Part shown: piece by piece, positions 22,904-38,917 of the stretch
Layout of the letters: every line of letters starts with the position of its first letter
Position numbering within the stretch: position 1 is the stretch's first letter
Assembly (NCBI RefSeq): GCF_003258315.1
Contig: NZ_CP030032.1
Location: forward strand, 100,001 to 164,000
From: Bradymonas sediminis
GTDB taxonomy: Bacteria; Myxococcota_A; Bradymonadia; Bradymonadales; Bradymonadaceae
Reading direction: 5' to 3'
DNA length: 64,000 nucleotides
Made by a program: the position numbers and the translations under genes
The notes under the pieces: generated by a model
Seen by the model: only the letters and a program-made list of their open reading frames with translations
Database searches by the model: none
Told to the model about the DNA's origin: nothing

Positions 22904-23755
22904 TTAAAACGCCAGGATATCCCGGGCCGCCAGCGCCTCCTCGATCAACCCCAATTGCATCAGTTTTTCCTGAACATCGCCCAGCTCGTCATGCGTCAGG
23001 GGCTCGCTCGCCCATTGGGTGAGCGAGAGCCAGGCTTTGACGTCGGCGGGTTTTTGCCCGAATCGCTCGGCGATAAGCGCTTCGGTCTGCGGCGCATCTT
23101 TGAAGGTGGCGGTCGCGGCGTTGATGACCTTTAGGACCGAGCGGACGTCGGGTTCGTGCGCGTCGAGGACATCGTTTCGCGCGGCGATCACAAAGCTTGG
23201 CCAGGGCGTGGGGCACTCGCCGATGCGCCGAAAGATGCCCTGGTCGACGTAGGGCTTGGTCATGAACTTCTCCCACATAAAATAGTCGCCACGCCCTTCG
23301 GGCAGCCCCTTAAGCGCCCCGTTTAGGTCGTCGATCACCTCAAATTTCAGGTCTTCTGTGAGGTTCCACCCGTGACTTTCGGCGTTCACAAAGGCCATCA
23401 GGTGCGAGCCCGAGCCGTACCGGCTGATCGCGGCGTGGGTGCCTTTTAGGTCCGCGATGGATTGGTAGTCGGAGCCGGCCGCGACATGGATGCCCCATAA
23501 AAGTGGTGACTTTACATAGACTTGCGCGATCTTCGCGGGGTTCCCCTGGACGATGTCGCGCACGATGCCCTCGGTGAGGATGACCGCCAGGTCGATCTCT
23601 TTGGCGCGCAGCGCGCGGTTCAGGTCGCCGGTGCCTTTGGGGAAGTCCCGCCAGACCAACTCAACCCCCTCGGCCTCGAATTTCTTCTCGCCGATGGCGA
23701 TCTGCCAGGGGAGGTTAAAATGCTCGGGGACGCCGCCAATGATGAGTTTTTTCAT
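22904..23755 (-). CDS. Type 2 periplasmic-binding-fold protein (NMT1/SsuA-like) without signal peptide
   Basis: 283 residues starting MKKLIIGGVPEHFNLPWQIAI, with the body of a type 2 periplasmic-binding protein: FEAEGVELVWRDFPKGTGDLNRALRAKEIDLAVILTEG, then GSDYQSIADLKGTHAAISRYGSGSHLMA. This resembles the NMT1/THI5-like and Ca3427-like branch that binds small nitrogen or sulfur ligands. Unlike transport components it begins directly at the first beta strand, with no Sec signal or lipobox, and no ABC permease or ATPase genes are nearby. A cytoplasmic binding or enzymatic role is therefore likelier than uptake (inference). The open frame extends to 23812, but homology begins at 23755. Confidence 0.75.
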   Translation of the reverse strand: MKKLIIGGVPEHFNLPWQIAIGEKKFEAEGVELVWRDFPKGTGDLNRALRAKEIDLAVILTEGIVRDIVQGNPAKIAQVYVKSPLLWGIHVAAGSDYQSIADLKGTHAAISRYGSGSHLMAFVNAESHGWNLTEDLKFEVIDDLNGALKGLPEGRGDYFMWEKFMTKPYVDQGIFRRIGECPTPWPSFVIAARNDVLDAHEPDVRSVLKVINAATATFKDAPQTEALIAERFGQKPADVKAWLSLTQWASEPLTHDELGDVQEKLMQLGLIEEALAARDILAF

Positions 23756-23888
23756 GATTAAGTTATAGCGCAGGTTGCGATTAGGTTTGCGGCCTCGCGG
23801 GGCGAGGTGCACGCGTGGGGTCTTCTAATTGTTTGGGTGCGCGCCGTCTATACGTGTTTGTGATGTTCTCGTTTGTTGAAGGCTTGAC

Positions 23889-24016
23889 CCCCCCCGAAGG
23901 CTACGTCCGCCGCTGAAGGCTACGTTCGCCGCCGAGTGTACGACCTCCGCCCAAGGTGTGATCTCCGCCCAAGGTGTGATCTCCGCCCAAGCCATAACCC
24001 CCGCCGAAGGCTACGT
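23889..24016. repeat. Degenerate 18-bp tandem repeats at the left edge of the REP island
   Basis: About seven consecutive units of ~18 bp, for example CTCCGCCCAAGGTGTGAT (twice exactly), CTCCGCCCAAGCCATAAC and CCCCGCCGAAGGCTACGT. The last unit merges with the left end of the first 258-bp element. The same units recur at 24315-24420 and 25216-25270. Confidence 0.8.
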
Positions 24017-24258
24017 CCGCCAACGCTGGCGCGATTGGCGCCCTACGCCCACGGCTACTAGTTCGGTTACGCCCCTGCGGGGCTTGGTGCGCGGGGACCA
24101 TGCATGTTTGTGGAACTTCGTTGCGCGGTGGTGTTGGGCAATGTGTTCAAAAACGCGACATCGTTTGAAATGCCCAAGACGCACACCTCGCAAGCCCTGA
24201 AAGGGCGTAACCGAATCGGTAGCCGCGGTCGGAGCGTAGTTTGCGTAGGCTGCGGCGG
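24001..24258 (+). repeat. 258-bp REP-doublet (REPIN-like) unit, copy A
   Basis: Bounded by imperfect 15-bp inverted ends (CCGCCGAAGGCTACG and CGTAGGCTGCGGCGG). Inside are two inverted REP-like arms: GGTTACGCCCCTGCGGGGC on the left (24065-24083) and GCCCTGAAAGGGCGTAACC on the right (24194-24212), each holding a small hairpin next to TTAC/GTAA. The centre has nested inverted repeats (TTGGGCA/TGCCCAA and TTCAAA/TTTGAA). A 56-bp flank after copy A is identical after copy C. Open frames across it are repeat artefacts. Confidence 0.85.
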
Positions 24259-24314
24259 GGTGGCGAATAGCCGGGAGCGTGGTGACTATACGACCGCCGC
24301 CCAAGCCATAACCC

Positions 24315-24406
24315 CCGCCGAAGGCTACGTCCGCCGCTGAAGGCTACGTTCGCCGCCGAGTGTACGACCTCCGCCCAAGGTGTGATCTCCGCCCAAGCCA
24401 TAACCC
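24315..24406. repeat. 18-bp repeats between copies A and B
   Basis: The same degenerate CCGCC-GAAGG/CCCAAGG units as at 23889, roughly five copies, joining REP copies A and B. They contain no gene. Confidence 0.7.
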
Positions 24407-24664
24407 CCGCCGAAGGCTACGTCCGCCAACGCTGGCGCGATTGGCGCCCTACGCCCACGGCTACTAGTTCGGTTACGCCCCTGCGGGGCTTGGTGCGCGG
24501 GGACCATGCATGTTTGTGGAACTTCGTTGCGCGGTGGTTGTGGGCAATGTGTTCAAAAACGCGACATCGTTTGGAATATCCAAGACGCACATCTCGCAAG
24601 CCCTGAAAGGGCGTAACCGAATCGGTAGCCGCGGTCGGAGCGCCGTTTGCGTAGGCTGCGGCGG
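24407..24664 (+). repeat. 258-bp REP-doublet unit, copy B
   Basis: The same 258-bp unit as copy A, with several substitutions (GTGGTTGTGGG for GTGGTGTTGGG, GGAATATCC for GAAATGCCC, CACATCTCG for CACACCTCG). Ends and both REP arms are intact. It lies just downstream of the transposase gene. Confidence 0.85.
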
Positions 24665-25255
24665 GCGTCTTATTCGAGGGGTTGTGTTGGGCGATCGCCG
24701 TCTTAGCCTAACCGCTCGAATGGAGCCCATAGATCATCTTTTTTATGGTGGTTCTTTTGGTTTAACACGTAGTGAATAATGCCATCCATATCGTTGGGGT
24801 TTAGCGTGAACGCGCCGAAGCCCGCTTGCCAGGCGAAGGTGTCGAGGTGCGCAAAATTGCGCTTTAGTGCCTTGGTTGTCTCGGTTTTTACGCGCCCCAC
24901 AAAAGTGCTCACGGCGAGGGTTGGAGGTATTGCGGCGATGATATGAATGTGGTCTTCGATTCCGCCGATATGCGATATTTTTGCGTTGAGGGCTTCTGCC
25001 TCTCTGCGAAGAACCCTGTAGGCAACATTTTCAACGTCGGGAGTTAGGAGTGGTTCACGATATTTGGTCGCCGTAACGATATGATAGCGCAGTCGGGTAT
25101 AGGACATTATCCGCCTTAATGTTTAAAGATGTCTGAGATTGTAGGAGGTCTACATAGTAGACGGTTGAGTGGCTTTTTCATATTGAGATTTCGGTCTATT
25201 GGGGGGGGGGGCTTGGCAGCCGCCGAAGGCACGACCCCCGCCGAAGGCACAACCC
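24665..25255 (-). mobile_element. IS200/RAYT-type element segment between REP copies B and C
   Basis: The unique segment between REP copies B and C holds one Y1 transposase gene. Candidate subterminal hairpins are GTCTAC-ATA-GTAGAC (25148-25162, upstream of the gene) and the palindrome GGCGATCGCC (24690-24699, downstream), the arrangement expected of IS200/IS605 ends. An 11-G run occurs at 25201-25211. The exact element boundaries are not defined by sequence alone. Confidence 0.5.
24703..25107 (-). CDS. tnpA: IS200/IS605-family Y1 (REP-associated-type) transposase
   Basis: 134 residues, the full length of a single-domain Y1 HUH transposase. The HUH motif is DHIHI in GGIEDHIHIIAAIPP, and the catalytic Tyr with downstream Gln is in HYVLNQKNHHKK near residue 117. 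The N-terminus YTRLRYHIVTATKYREPLL is typical of the IS200 and REP-associated (RAYT) group. Such enzymes cut and join single-stranded DNA at hairpins. Here the gene is framed by four palindromic REP doublets with TTAC next to a hairpin, so it probably mobilised or still recognises them (inference). The gene looks intact, with no frameshift. Confidence 0.88.
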   Translation of the reverse strand: MSYTRLRYHIVTATKYREPLLTPDVENVAYRVLRREAEALNAKISHIGGIEDHIHIIAAIPPTLAVSTFVGRVKTETTKALKRNFAHLDTFAWQAGFGAFTLNPNDMDGIIHYVLNQKNHHKKDDLWAPFERLG

Positions 25256-25270
25256 CCGCCGAAGGCTACG
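25216..25270. repeat. 18-bp repeats leading into copy C
   Basis: Three near-perfect ~18-bp units (CCGCCGAAGGCACGACCC, CCGCCGAAGGCACAACCC, CCGCCGAAGGCTACGTCC); the last is the left end of REP copy C. Confidence 0.75.
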
Positions 25271-25513
25271 TCCGCCAACGCTGGCGCGATTGGCGCCCTA
25301 CGCCCACGGCTACTAGTTCGGTTACGCCCCTGCGGGGCTTGGTGCGCGGGGACCATGCATGTTTGTGGAACTTCGTTGCGCGGTGGTGTTGGGCAATGTG
25401 TTCAAAAACGCGACATCGTTTGAAATGCCCAAGACGCACACCTCGCAAGCCCTGAAAGGGCGTAACCGAATCGGTAGCCGCGGTCGGAGCGTAGTTTGCG
25501 TAGGCTGCGGCGG
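25256..25513 (+). repeat. 258-bp REP-doublet unit, copy C
   Basis: Reads identically to copy A over all 258 bp as far as I can compare, and the 56-bp flank that follows (25514-25569) is also the same. This points to a recent segmental duplication of unit plus flank. Confidence 0.85.
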
Positions 25514-25569
25514 GGTGGCGAATAGCCGGGAGCGTGGTGACTATACGACCGCCGCCCAAGCCATAACCC

Positions 25570-25827
25570 CCGCCGAAGGCTACGTCCGCCAACGCTGGCG
25601 CGATTGGCGCCCTACGCCCACGGCTACTAGTTCGGTTACGCCCCTGCGGGGCTTGGTGCGCGGGGACCATGCATGTTTGTGGAACTTCGTTGCGCGGTGG
25701 TGTTGGGCAATGTGTTCAAAAACGCGACATCGTTTGAAATGCCCAAGACGCACACCTCGCAAGCCCTGAAAGGGCGTAACCGAATCGGTAGCCGCGGTCG
25801 GATCGCCGTTTGCGTAGGCTGCGGCGG
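25570..25827 (+). repeat. 258-bp REP-doublet unit, copy D
   Basis: The fourth unit, identical to A and C except near the right end (GGATCGCCG in place of GGAGCGTAG). It begins exactly 56 bp after copy C ends, so C and D form a tandem pair. The remaining sequence to mutS (25828-26017) holds no gene. Confidence 0.85.
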
Positions 25828-26017
25828 GCGGCGGGCTCGCGCGGCGTTTCGATCGTCGCTAACCGGACGCCCACCGCGCCGCGCATCCCAAAGACTTGAT
25901 TGACGCCAAGGCGTCGGCGATGACACATTAAGCGGCGCATCTTTGCCCCTGCGCTTGCGCGGGCTATTTCGCGTCCTCGACGCGTGCCTGACCTGACCCC
26001 AAACCCCCTTGAGATGT

Positions 26018-28813
26018 ATGAAGCTCACACCGATGTTGCGCCAATATCTGGAAGTAAAAGAGCGTTTTCCCGGCTCGATTCTTTTCTTCCGCCTGGGCGA
26101 TTTCTACGAGATGTTTTTTGAGGACGCGAAGACCAGCGCGCGGGAGTTGGGGCTGACGCTGACGGCGCGTGGGAAGAATAAAAACGCGGTGCCGATGGCG
26201 GGGGTGCCGCATCACGCGGCGGCCGGGTATATCGACCGGCTGGTCGACAAGGGATTCTCGGTGGCGATCTGTGAGCAGGTCGAAGATGTGGCGGACGCCA
26301 AGGGGATCGTGAAGCGCGACGTGACGCGGGTGGTGACGCCCGGGGTGTTGCTCGACAGCGACTCGCTCGATGAGAAGGCGCCCAATTATGTCGCGGCCAT
26401 CGCGGTCGGTTCGGCCAGCGAGGCGGCCCGGGCAGGCCAGGAGCTCACCTATGGGCTGGCCTATTTGGATGTGTCGACCGGTGATTTTCAGGTCACGGAG
26501 TTGCGCGGTCGCGCCGAGCTTTTGAGCGAGCTGAACCGCGTGGAGCCGCGCGAATTGTTGATCCCGCAGGCCGAAGAGGGCGACGCTGTTTTTGCCGAGA
26601 GTAACGCCCAGGACGATGACGGCCGGCCGCGAATCAGCGGGCATTTTGAGGCCATGCGCGCCCAGCTGGAGGGCGTGTTTTTAAGGCCGCGCTCGCCGAA
26701 ATGCTACGCCTCAAAACACCTGCTGGAGCGCGTCGCCGCCGGGCCGCGCCTGGCCGACGACCTGGCGAGCGACGCGTATTTTTTGAAGAGCGCGGCGGTC
26801 GAAAAGATCTTCGCGCGCGTCCATGACTTCAACTTCGAGGGCGGCGAGGCGGTGGCCAAGGCGGCCTGCGCGGTGCTCGATTATCTGGTCGAGACGCGCC
26901 GCGGTGTGCCGGCCAATATTCAGGCGGTCGAGCCGTATCGGGCGCGCTCCTTCCTGGTGATCGACGAGTCCACCAAGGCGAATCTTGAGCTGACCAAGAC
27001 GCTGATGGGCGCGCGCCGAAGCGGCAGCCTGCTGGGGGTCATCGACAAGACCACCACCGCCATGGGCGCGCGCAGGCTTCGCCAATGGCTCAACTATCCG
27101 CTGGTCGACGCCACGCGCATCCGCAATCGCCACGACGCGGTCGAGGAGATGCTGCGCTTCCCGGCGCTTCGCGAGGATATCCGCAACGCCCTGGGCGAGG
27201 TCTACGATATCGAGCGGCTGTGCGCCAAGATCTCGTCGGGCAGCGCGAACGCGCGTGACCTGCGCAGTCTTCTAAAGACCTTGAGCATCATCCCCGAGGT
27301 CAAGGAAGTGCTGGCCGATTGCGAGTCGGAGTTCCTGGTCTCCCTGGACGAAAGCCTCGACCCCTGCCCGGAGCTGCGCGACCTGATCGAGCGCGCGATC
27401 GTCGATGACCCGCCGATCGAGTTGACCGAGGGGCGGCTGTTTAGGGCCGGATTCCACGCCGAACTCGACGAGCTGATCGACCTGTCGGAGCACGGCAAGG
27501 ACTGGCTGCTCAATTACGCGGCCGAGCAGAAACAAGCGACCGATATCAGCAGCCTGAAGATCAAATATAATAAGGTCTTTGGCTACTTTTTGGAGGTCAC
27601 CAAGTCGAACCTGGACCTGGTCCCCGAGCACTATATTCGCAAGCAAACGCTGGCGAACGCGGAGCGCTATTATACCCCGGAGCTCAAGGAGATGGAGGAG
27701 AAGATCCTGAGCGCCGATGACAAGCGTAAGACGCTGGAATACCAGCTCTTTCAGGAGCTCCGCCAGACCGTCGGCCTGGAGGTCGGCGCGCTGCTTCGCA
27801 CGGCGAGCGAATTGGCCAATCTCGACGTGATCGCGGGGCTCTCGGAGTTGGCCGCGCGCCTGGAATACACGCGCCCGACCATCTGCGATGAGCCGGTCAT
27901 CGAGATCGACGAGGGCCGCCACCCGGTGGTCGAGAGCACGCTCAAAGACGAGCGTTTCGTGCCCAACTCGGTGCGCATGTCGCCGGAGCGCCGCCTGCTC
28001 ATCATCACCGGGCCGAATATGGCCGGTAAGTCGACGGTCATCCGCCAGGTCGCGCTGATTAGCCTGCTCGCCCAGATGGGCTCCTTTGTGCCGGCGAAGA
28101 GCGCCCGGCTCGGGCTGGTCGATAAAATATTTAGCCGCGTGGGCGCCAGCGATAACCTGGCCCGCGGCCAGTCGACCTTTATGGTCGAGATGACCGAGGC
28201 CGCGCATATCCTCAATAACGCGACCGACAAGAGTCTGGTCATTCTCGATGAGATTGGCCGCGGCACCTCGACCTTCGACGGGCTGTCGATCGCCTGGGCG
28301 GTGGCCGAGTATCTGCACGATAAACTTCAATCAAAGACGATGTTCGCCACGCATTATCACGAGCTGACCGAGCTGGTGCGCACCCTGGACGGGGCGCATA
28401 ACCTGTCGATCGCGGTCAAGGAGTGGAACGACGATATTATCTTTTTGCGCAAACTCGTCGACGGCGAGGCCAACCGCTCCTACGGCATCCAGGTCGGCAA
28501 GCTCGCCGGGCTGCCCGAGCCGGTGGTCGCGCGCGCCAAGCAGGTGCTCGAGAACCTCGAGGGCGGCCAATTCGACGAGCGCGGCGTGCCGCGCGCCGGG
28601 CGTCAGCCGGGCAAACCCGCGCCGGTGACCGCGCGAAATAACCCCAATCAGCTCGGCCTCTTCCAAGCTCCCCCGGCGCTCGACCCCGCCCAACAGGCGG
28701 CCCTGGAGCGCATTCAGGGATTAAATCCCAATACAATGACGCCGCTTGAAGCGCTTAATATTTTAGGTGAATTGGTGGGCCTTGTGGGCTCGTCCGACGA
28801 CCTCAACAACTGA
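26018..28813 (+). CDS. mutS: DNA mismatch repair protein MutS
   Basis: About 931 residues (E. coli 853). The mismatch-reading Phe-x-Glu is in GDFYEMFFEDA near residue 30, followed by the connector and lever domains. The C-terminal ABC-type ATPase has Walker A TGPNMAGKSTVIRQVALI near 665, LVILDEIGRGTSTFDG, and FATHYHELTEL. MutS finds base mismatches after replication and calls in MutL; mutL is not in the window. The ATG at 26018 is preferred over the in-frame TTG at 26009. It is followed after 85 bp by a lipoprotein gene on the same strand. Confidence 0.97.
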   Translation: MKLTPMLRQYLEVKERFPGSILFFRLGDFYEMFFEDAKTSARELGLTLTARGKNKNAVPMAGVPHHAAAGYIDRLVDKGFSVAICEQVEDVADAKGIVKRDVTRVVTPGVLLDSDSLDEKAPNYVAAIAVGSASEAARAGQELTYGLAYLDVSTGDFQVTELRGRAELLSELNRVEPRELLIPQAEEGDAVFAESNAQDDDGRPRISGHFEAMRAQLEGVFLRPRSPKCYASKHLLERVAAGPRLADDLASDAYFLKSAAVEKIFARVHDFNFEGGEAVAKAACAVLDYLVETRRGVPANIQAVEPYRARSFLVIDESTKANLELTKTLMGARRSGSLLGVIDKTTTAMGARRLRQWLNYPLVDATRIRNRHDAVEEMLRFPALREDIRNALGEVYDIERLCAKISSGSANARDLRSLLKTLSIIPEVKEVLADCESEFLVSLDESLDPCPELRDLIERAIVDDPPIELTEGRLFRAGFHAELDELIDLSEHGKDWLLNYAAEQKQATDISSLKIKYNKVFGYFLEVTKSNLDLVPEHYIRKQTLANAERYYTPELKEMEEKILSADDKRKTLEYQLFQELRQTVGLEVGALLRTASELANLDVIAGLSELAARLEYTRPTICDEPVIEIDEGRHPVVESTLKDERFVPNSVRMSPERRLLIITGPNMAGKSTVIRQVALISLLAQMGSFVPAKSARLGLVDKIFSRVGASDNLARGQSTFMVEMTEAAHILNNATDKSLVILDEIGRGTSTFDGLSIAWAVAEYLHDKLQSKTMFATHYHELTELVRTLDGAHNLSIAVKEWNDDIIFLRKLVDGEANRSYGIQVGKLAGLPEPVVARAKQVLENLEGGQFDERGVPRAGRQPGKPAPVTARNNPNQLGLFQAPPALDPAQQAALERIQGLNPNTMTPLEALNILGELVGLVGSSDDLNN

Positions 28814-37756: not shown

Positions 37757-38917
37757 TTAGAAGTCGGGCCGCTCAACATAGGTCCCGTTGAAGTCTACCC
37801 GGGTGATATGGGAGTTCGGCAGGCCATCGGGGAAAATAAACGTCGCATCGCGAACGATGCCGCTAAACGAGTTGCCGAAAGATGTGATTTGAACGGTGCC
37901 GGTCTTCGCGGTGCCTTCGATATTTAGATCGATGTCCGAGCCCGGCTCGTCCGGGAGATCGCAGATGAGCTGCACGCATTTATTGCGGCAAATGGGGTCG
38001 GCGTACCATTTCTCGCCCTCTTCGGGGAAGTCTTGGATGAACGTCTTATAGAGCCAGCCATTGGGCCCGATATGGTAGGTTCCGACGTCCGCTCCCGTCC
38101 GCAGCCAGTATTCCTCGACATAGAGACCCAGGGCGACCCGTTCATTCTGCGGGAGCATGCCGGCGAAGAAGGTGACCTCGCGGGTCCATCCCTGCCCATC
38201 GATCTCGAAATAAAACCCATCAAGGTTGAAAGTTCCGTACTCCGATTGGAAGACGCACTCATCGCCGCCGCCGGAGCCGTTGTTGGTGCCAGTGCCGTTG
38301 TTGGTGCCAGTGCCGTTGTTGGTGCCAGTGCCGTTGTTGGTGCCGGTGCCGTTGTTGGAGCCAGTGCCGTTGTTGGAGCCAGTGCCGTTGTTGGTGCCAG
38401 TGCCGTTGTTGGAGCCAGTGCCGTTGTTGGAGCCAGTGCCGTTATTGGAGCCGGTGCCGTTGTTGGTGCCGGTGCCGTTATTGGTGCCGGTGCCGTTATT
38501 GGTGCCGGTGCTGTTATTGGTGCCGGTGCCGTTATTGGTACCAGAGCCGTTATTGGTGCCAGAGCCGTTATTGGTACCAGAGCCGTTGTTGGTGCCGGAG
38601 CCGTTATTGGTGCCGGAGCCGTTATTGGTGCCGGAGCCGTTATTGGTGCCGGTGCCGTTATTGGTGCCAGTGCCGTTGTTGGTGCCAGTGCCGTTATTGG
38701 TGCCAGTGCCGTTATTGGTGCCAGAGCCGTTATTGGTGCCAGAGCCGTTATTGGTACCAGAGCCGTTATTGGTACCAGAGCCGTTGTTCTCGCCCTGGTT
38801 TGCGCTGGGCCCGACATTTGTCGTGACTCTTGCCGCGTCGCCACATCCACTCAAAAGACCACCAAGCATCAGGGCTGTGGCCGCGGCTACGAGTTTCGAA
38901 CGCTTAAATGGATTCAT
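37757..38917 (-). CDS. Lipoprotein with long Asn-Asn-Gly-(Ser/Thr)-Gly-(Thr/Ser) repeat linker
   Basis: 386 residues. Signal peptide MNPFKRSKLVAAATALMLGG with lipobox LLSGC (Cys25). Residues ~42-218 are about 29 copies of a six-residue NNG[ST]G[TS] repeat. The C-terminal ~165 residues form a compact domain starting ECVFQSEYGTFNLDGFYFEIDG, with a CRNKCVQLICD cluster likely disulfide-bonded; I do not recognise the family. The linker probably extends this domain from the membrane. The underlying 18-bp DNA repeat keeps other frames open too, but only this frame has a signal peptide and a structured end. Confidence 0.85.
   Translation of the reverse strand: MNPFKRSKLVAAATALMLGGLLSGCGDAARVTTNVGPSANQGENNGSGTNNGSGTNNGSGTNNGSGTNNGTGTNNGTGTNNGTGTNNGTGTNNGSGTNNGSGTNNGSGTNNGSGTNNGSGTNNGSGTNNGTGTNNSTGTNNGTGTNNGTGTNNGTGSNNGTGSNNGTGSNNGTGTNNGTGSNNGTGSNNGTGTNNGTGTNNGTGTNNGTGTNNGSGGGDECVFQSEYGTFNLDGFYFEIDGQGWTREVTFFAGMLPQNERVALGLYVEEYWLRTGADVGTYHIGPNGWLYKTFIQDFPEEGEKWYADPICRNKCVQLICDLPDEPGSDIDLNIEGTAKTGTVQITSFGNSFSGIVRDATFIFPDGLPNSHITRVDFNGTYVERPDF
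38277..38797. repeat. 18-bp tandem repeat array (~29 units) in the lipoprotein gene
   Basis: On the + strand each unit reads close to GTTGTTGGTGCCAGTGCC, with variation at wobble positions (GTTATT, GGTACC, GGAGCC). Divisible by three, so copy-number change keeps the frame. Blocks of identical variants suggest repeated slippage or unequal exchange. Confidence 0.92.

Follow-up and report, generated by a model that had tools for sequence, protein, structure and literature searches.

A probable REPIN-like family of GTAG-tagged palindromes around an IS200-type Y1 transposase gene

REPs and REPINs are repeats that occur widely in bacteria and may derive from the ends of IS200-like elements. In the REPIN/RAYT systems of Pseudomonas fluorescens SBW25 (PMC3116915) and Escherichia coli (PMC8266576), the gene of a class 2 enzyme (TnpAREP) stays at home, the hairpins carry a GTAG tag, and inverted doublets are dispersed without the gene, with one family per enzyme. 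A step from IS200 to REPIN was proposed by Bertels and Rainey (2011, PMC3116915). In IS200/IS605 elements such as IS608 and ISDra2, single subterminal hairpins adjoin the gene. TIRtrons contain a Y1 gene (TIRYT) between long inverted or self-complementary repeats that are sometimes dispersed as dimers (Di Nocera et al. 2013, PMC3733652), and class 2, subclass 2.1, accounts for 20 of the 26 described TIRYTs. Both Y1 genes with long inverted repeats and GTAG REPs in Cyanobacteria and Planctomycetes are already known (PMC3733652). The class 1 enzymes of subclass 1.2, for which Cyanobacteria and Bacteroidetes are named, were reported to occur in low copy number, to lack REPs, and in general to lack IS200 ends (Quentin et al. 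2018, PMC6006769).

We analyzed a window of 64 kb, the whole stretch of DNA considered here (G000:C1:100001–164000, from a single-contig genome of 5.05 Mb, hereafter G000). In this window, four nested palindromes of 258 bp with a mutual identity of 97–100% surround an intact Y1 HUH gene in the order [unit, unit]–tnpA–[unit, unit] (Table 1). The locus is bordered by a gene for a substrate-binding protein on one side (22904–23812, minus strand) and by mutS on the other (26009–28813, plus strand). The preliminary description of this DNA had reported four units of exactly 258 bp with imperfect inverted ends, two arm hairpins, and a Y1 HUH gene between the unit pairs, all of which we confirmed.

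Table 1. Coordinates of the units, the enzyme gene, and the annotated parts of unit 3 in the window
Feature	Position	Strand	Evidence
Unit 1, inverted REP-like doublet, nested palindrome	24001..24258	+	100% identity with unit 3
Unit 2	24407..24664	+	97% identity with unit 3
tnpA, Y1 HUH enzyme, 134 aa, subclass 1.2 signature	24703..25107	-	PF01797; NCBIfam; motifs as in PMC6006769
Unit 3	25256..25513	+	DNA fold z=-6.2, computed for 25256-25518
Unit 4	25570..25827	+	99% identity with unit 3
Block A (units 1+2)	23965..24667	+	self-comparison; duplicated across tnpA
Block B (units 3+4), second block copy	25220..25830	+	self-comparison
GTAG tag, left module, unit 3 (CTAC on +)	25310..25313	-	GGCTA in 8/8 aligned copies
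hp1 hairpin, left module, unit 3, GCCCC-TGC-GGGGC	25326..25338	-	eight-copy alignment
hp1 hairpin, right module, unit 3, GCCCT-GAA-AGGGC	25449..25461	+	eight-copy alignment
GTAG tag, right module, unit 3	25474..25477	+	TAGCC in 8/8 aligned copies

We consider this a REPtron- or REPIN-like locus that is probably operated by a Y1 HUH enzyme of IS200 type (class 1, subclass 1.2). It shares with REPIN/RAYT systems all of the features listed above for them, whereas its enzyme is of class 1 (Y---Q--HH, not Y---NP), its units measure about 258–400 bp with two hairpins per module, and about ten copies are present instead of hundreds. IS200/IS605 elements resemble it in enzyme fold and profile and in the hairpins that adjoin the gene; however, a multicopy gene-bearing element is absent here, and the doublets follow the order hp1–spacer–GTAG–hp2. 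The arrangement of a Y1 gene between long repeats is also that of TIRtrons, most of whose described enzymes, unlike the one here, are of class 2.

TnpA matches PF01797 (E = 1.8e-23) and scores 76.8 bits against the NCBIfam IS200/IS605 profile (NF033573), which has a cut-off of 55, but 28.1 bits against the curated RAYT profile REP_Tyr_transpos, which has a cut-off of 80. Of the earlier label "IS200/RAYT-type," the first half thus holds, whereas by the curated profile TnpA is not a RAYT in the strict sense. A structure-profile search retrieved IS608 TnpA and other IS200-type structures (PDB code 2a6m, E = 3e-20), and no chain named TnpAREP was found in the PDB at E ≤ 1. The motifs DHIH, WQ, and Y---Q--HH are the signature of TnpA_Y1 subclass 1.2. 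The tyrosine motif reads YVLNQKNHH, with Y and Q invariant among 16 relatives, and the class 2 motif Y---NP is absent. Motifs, the core of about 112 amino acids, low copy number, and low within-genome identity between copies all agree with the published subclass (PMC6006769). Indeed, the window tnpA is single-copy in G000, where three paralogs share 49–51% identity and no near-identical gene-bearing copies occur at other sites. A longer, weaker-scoring Y1 gene of G000 adjoins long tandem repeats (L024, G000:C1:2523207–2526419).

Within each unit, a REP-like module composed of hairpin hp1, spacer, GTAG, and hairpin hp2 occurs twice as an inverted doublet. From the outside in, the terminal inverted repeat CCGCCGAAGGCTACG is followed by the left-arm hairpin, CTAC, ∼12 nt, and the GC hairpin hp1; after a centre of ∼90–100 nt comes the mirror image of the left arm, which ends in GCGTAGGCTGCGGCGG, the imperfect inverted counterpart of CCGCCGAAGGCTACG. 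As single-stranded DNA, one unit is predicted to fold at −78.5 kcal/mol, compared with −55.3 kcal/mol for dinucleotide shuffles (z = −6.2). In an alignment of eight copies, the arms proved conserved but the centre did not (78–85% and 43–52% identity, respectively, between home and dispersed copies). GGCTA/TAGCC is retained in all eight, and the full GTAG/CTAC in most. The preliminary description had assigned the guide to a TTAC beside the hairpin; this was ruled out, as TTAC is not conserved over the aligned copies, most dispersed ones reading GTCAC, TTCC, or GTCC, and the conserved tag is GTAG. Two-sided compensatory changes occur in 7 of 75 predicted pairs (for example, columns 25/32, 65/215, 68/212, 87/189, and 88/188), in a small and partly non-independent sample with three home copies among the eight. 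They are supportive of retained pairing within the unit and, to that extent, of the REPtron-like reading. An Rfam search returned no credible match, the sole hit being a miRNA model far under its gathering score, and a known structured RNA was rejected as the identity of the unit.

Self-comparison also rules out four independent insertions at the home locus. Units 1+2 (block A) recur as units 3+4 (block B), a duplication of one two-unit block, and the array around tnpA therefore appears to have grown through local duplication, which accounts for the near-identity of the home copies. Minisatellites of 18 bp lie at the unit ends (23896–23991, 24315–24427, and 25220–25266) and also in the flanks of L005–L007. 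At its terminus, the unit carries 18 bp that resemble a single repeat of such an array, and related arrays flank it in opposite orientations, an arrangement like that of foldback elements. Another 18-bp tandem array (GCCGTTATTGGTGCCAGT, 28 copies, 94% matches) is located at 38276–38785.

Elsewhere in G000, the unit is found in five well-preserved copies (at 475581, 1305092, 1305563, 1310696, and 4452396) and one degraded copy (∼2029626), all beyond the window. The well-preserved copies are gene-less, and for several copies of the family the terminal sequence is constant while the flanks differ. Among 95 other genomes no full-length unit was detected, only two short matches of 37–39 bp. This combination of gene-less dispersal in G000 and absence of full-length copies from the other genomes supports the REPtron-like reading, and with it the earlier proposal of a non-autonomous REP-doublet family with its Y1 enzyme at home: the family consists of paired, inverted hairpins with a GTAG tag that are scattered without the gene. 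That it is "live or recently active," as also proposed, is doubtful, the dispersed copies being just 67–74% identical to the home copies. At the mutS locus, where an empty site was sought by comparison, the genes upstream are arranged differently in relatives.

Most paralogs tested have a repeat family of their own that is dispersed without the gene. Of the four paralogous enzymes of G000, those of the window, L034, and L042 have long repeat blocks on both sides, and flank queries from L034 and L042 each retrieved their own dispersed copies; the query from the third paralog (L039) gave local matches and short pieces common to the L034 family, and nothing more. A closed 8.0-Mb relative (G010) has three enzymes and three families. 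In its L030 family, 398-bp relatives with 17-bp inverted ends lie at ∼4648, 6626, and 5966 kb and are 93–97% identical at these distant sites, and therefore point to recent dispersal there. At 4648 kb the element interrupts a hairpin, the loop region GGGTTCACCC of which is duplicated (10 bp), and an intact tandem copy of the interrupted hairpin adjoins the element and provides an empty site for this sister family. At 6626 kb the duplicated 10-bp stretch is GGACAAGCCC; other copies did not show a clean duplication. Both relatives (L184 and L185, G010:C1:4648500–4649300 and 6625700–6626500) lie within loops of GC-rich hairpins. The gene-bearing locus of G010 does not carry the terminal repeats seen on its 398-bp relatives, which is what mobile units and a stationary gene would lead one to expect. 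In another G010 family, one of 63-bp modules (L191–L202), the elements are sharp-ended, with a 5′ end common to ten copies within ∼1 base, and several copies lie directly after likely stop codons. In G010, too, mutS has a subclass-1.2 tnpA within a few kb, but a different one (L223, G010:C1:1379500–1390500), beyond the gene that comes after mutS in both genomes, which may be coincidence. In Planktothrix, the doublet adjoining tnpA gave 59 matches, with both strands of palindromic copies counted, whereas the flank repeat of Algoriphagus had no matches away from the gene. The dispersed families of paralogs in G000, G010, and Planktothrix, together with the close identity and sharp ends of the G010 copies, argue for the REPtron-like reading.

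A search with an eight-member alignment yielded 80 relatives, which are distributed over Cyanobacteria, Bacteroidetes, Verrucomicrobia, Planctomycetes, Acidobacteria, Chloroflexi, Myxococcales, and further groups, a wider range than that named for subclass 1.2 in PMC6006769. The DHuH plus Y---Q--HH signature is present in 77 of them. A repeat shared by the left and right flanks (400-bp flanks, >40 bits) was detected at 67 of 88 subclass-1.2 loci (76%), compared with 2 of 130 control windows that were displaced by 1.7 kb within the same loci; the p value of 1e-34 overstates independence because closely related loci are included (e.g. several from Nostoc), but the contrast persists over many phyla. 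At the remaining 21 loci no flanking repeat was found within 400 bp. The repeats are inverted in 37 of 55 positives outside the family of the window and direct in 9 of 12 inside it, and many have the one anatomy hp1–spacer–(G)TAG–hp2. GTAG beside a perfect-stem hairpin occurs on both flanks in 18/90, against 0/250. This strict search overlooks many loci that are obvious on visual inspection, and k-mer enrichment was therefore added: TAGCC is present in both arms at 40 of 73 loci (11.8 expected), and GTAGCC at 24 of the same set (3.9 expected). Gene and hairpin pattern are just partly concordant, and the pattern was rejected as a marker of presence or absence within the family. Flank repeats, TAGCC, and GTAG hairpins together favor the REPtron-like reading, and subclass-1.2 enzymes, published as lacking such a partner, probably spread palindromic repeats. 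No paper linking the subclass to such repeats was found among the articles searched.

We infer that TnpA mobilizes the units, in a scheme that borrows excision, GTAG-guided cleavage, and rejoining from the biochemistry of TnpAREP and IS608 (PMC8266576). When one strand is exposed, for instance at a replication fork, the doublet would fold, and TnpA would bind its hairpin. GTAG would then direct cleavage by the catalytic tyrosine Tyr-113, and the excised or copied strand would be joined elsewhere. In this way the units would spread, and the tnpA gene would remain at home.

Alternatively, the locus could be an ordinary insertion sequence of the IS200/IS605 kind that is accompanied by MITE derivatives, in which the gene is mobile with its inverted arms and the gene-less doublets arose by internal deletion. 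The IS200-type protein (NCBIfam and PDB profiles) and the arms, inverted and near the gene in most phyla, would fit, as would the arms common to gene-bearing and gene-less copies in P. rubescens and G010. We nevertheless regard this as unlikely, given that a second near-identical gene-bearing copy is absent among paralogs this divergent, that the blocks in the family of the window are mostly direct, and that the G010 gene locus lacks the ends of its dispersed units. The 17-bp terminal inverted repeats and the 10-bp target duplications of two G010 relatives raise another explanation, namely that a different transposase (e.g. DDE) moved the units, with REP-like arms merely carried and tnpA just a neighbor. 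Known Y1 chemistry would not be expected to produce such duplications; they weaken the REPtron-like reading, and some copies were possibly moved by another enzyme. As a general account this is improbable, because the G010 terminal repeat (≤1 mismatch) occurs almost exclusively at the 398-bp units, no gene-bearing element with it was recognized in our search, and the Y1 genes between such repeats in several phyla would be left unexplained.

The palindromes might also be immobile now, serving as transcription terminators, mRNA stabilizers, or structured RNAs and having been multiplied by recombination. The dispersed copies of the window family are indeed old, with conserved arms and diverged centres, and several copies of another G010 family begin just after likely stop codons; the Rfam result and the close identity of sister-family copies at distant sites make this equally improbable. 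Against the REPtron-like reading itself stand the age of these dispersed copies, the loci without a flank repeat, Algoriphagus, and the partial concordance of gene and hairpin pattern.

More tentatively, subclass 1.2 could represent a RAYT-like lineage that arose a second time, independently, within the IS200 class, and its enzymes in several phyla would have abandoned IS mobility and spread their own GTAG-tagged palindromes, so that the IS200-to-REPIN step would be visible in living genomes. A class 1 enzyme paired with GTAG-tagged doublets would fit naturally as an intermediate between IS200-like elements and REPINs, and it would fill the "no REP" blank in the published classification of Y1 enzymes.
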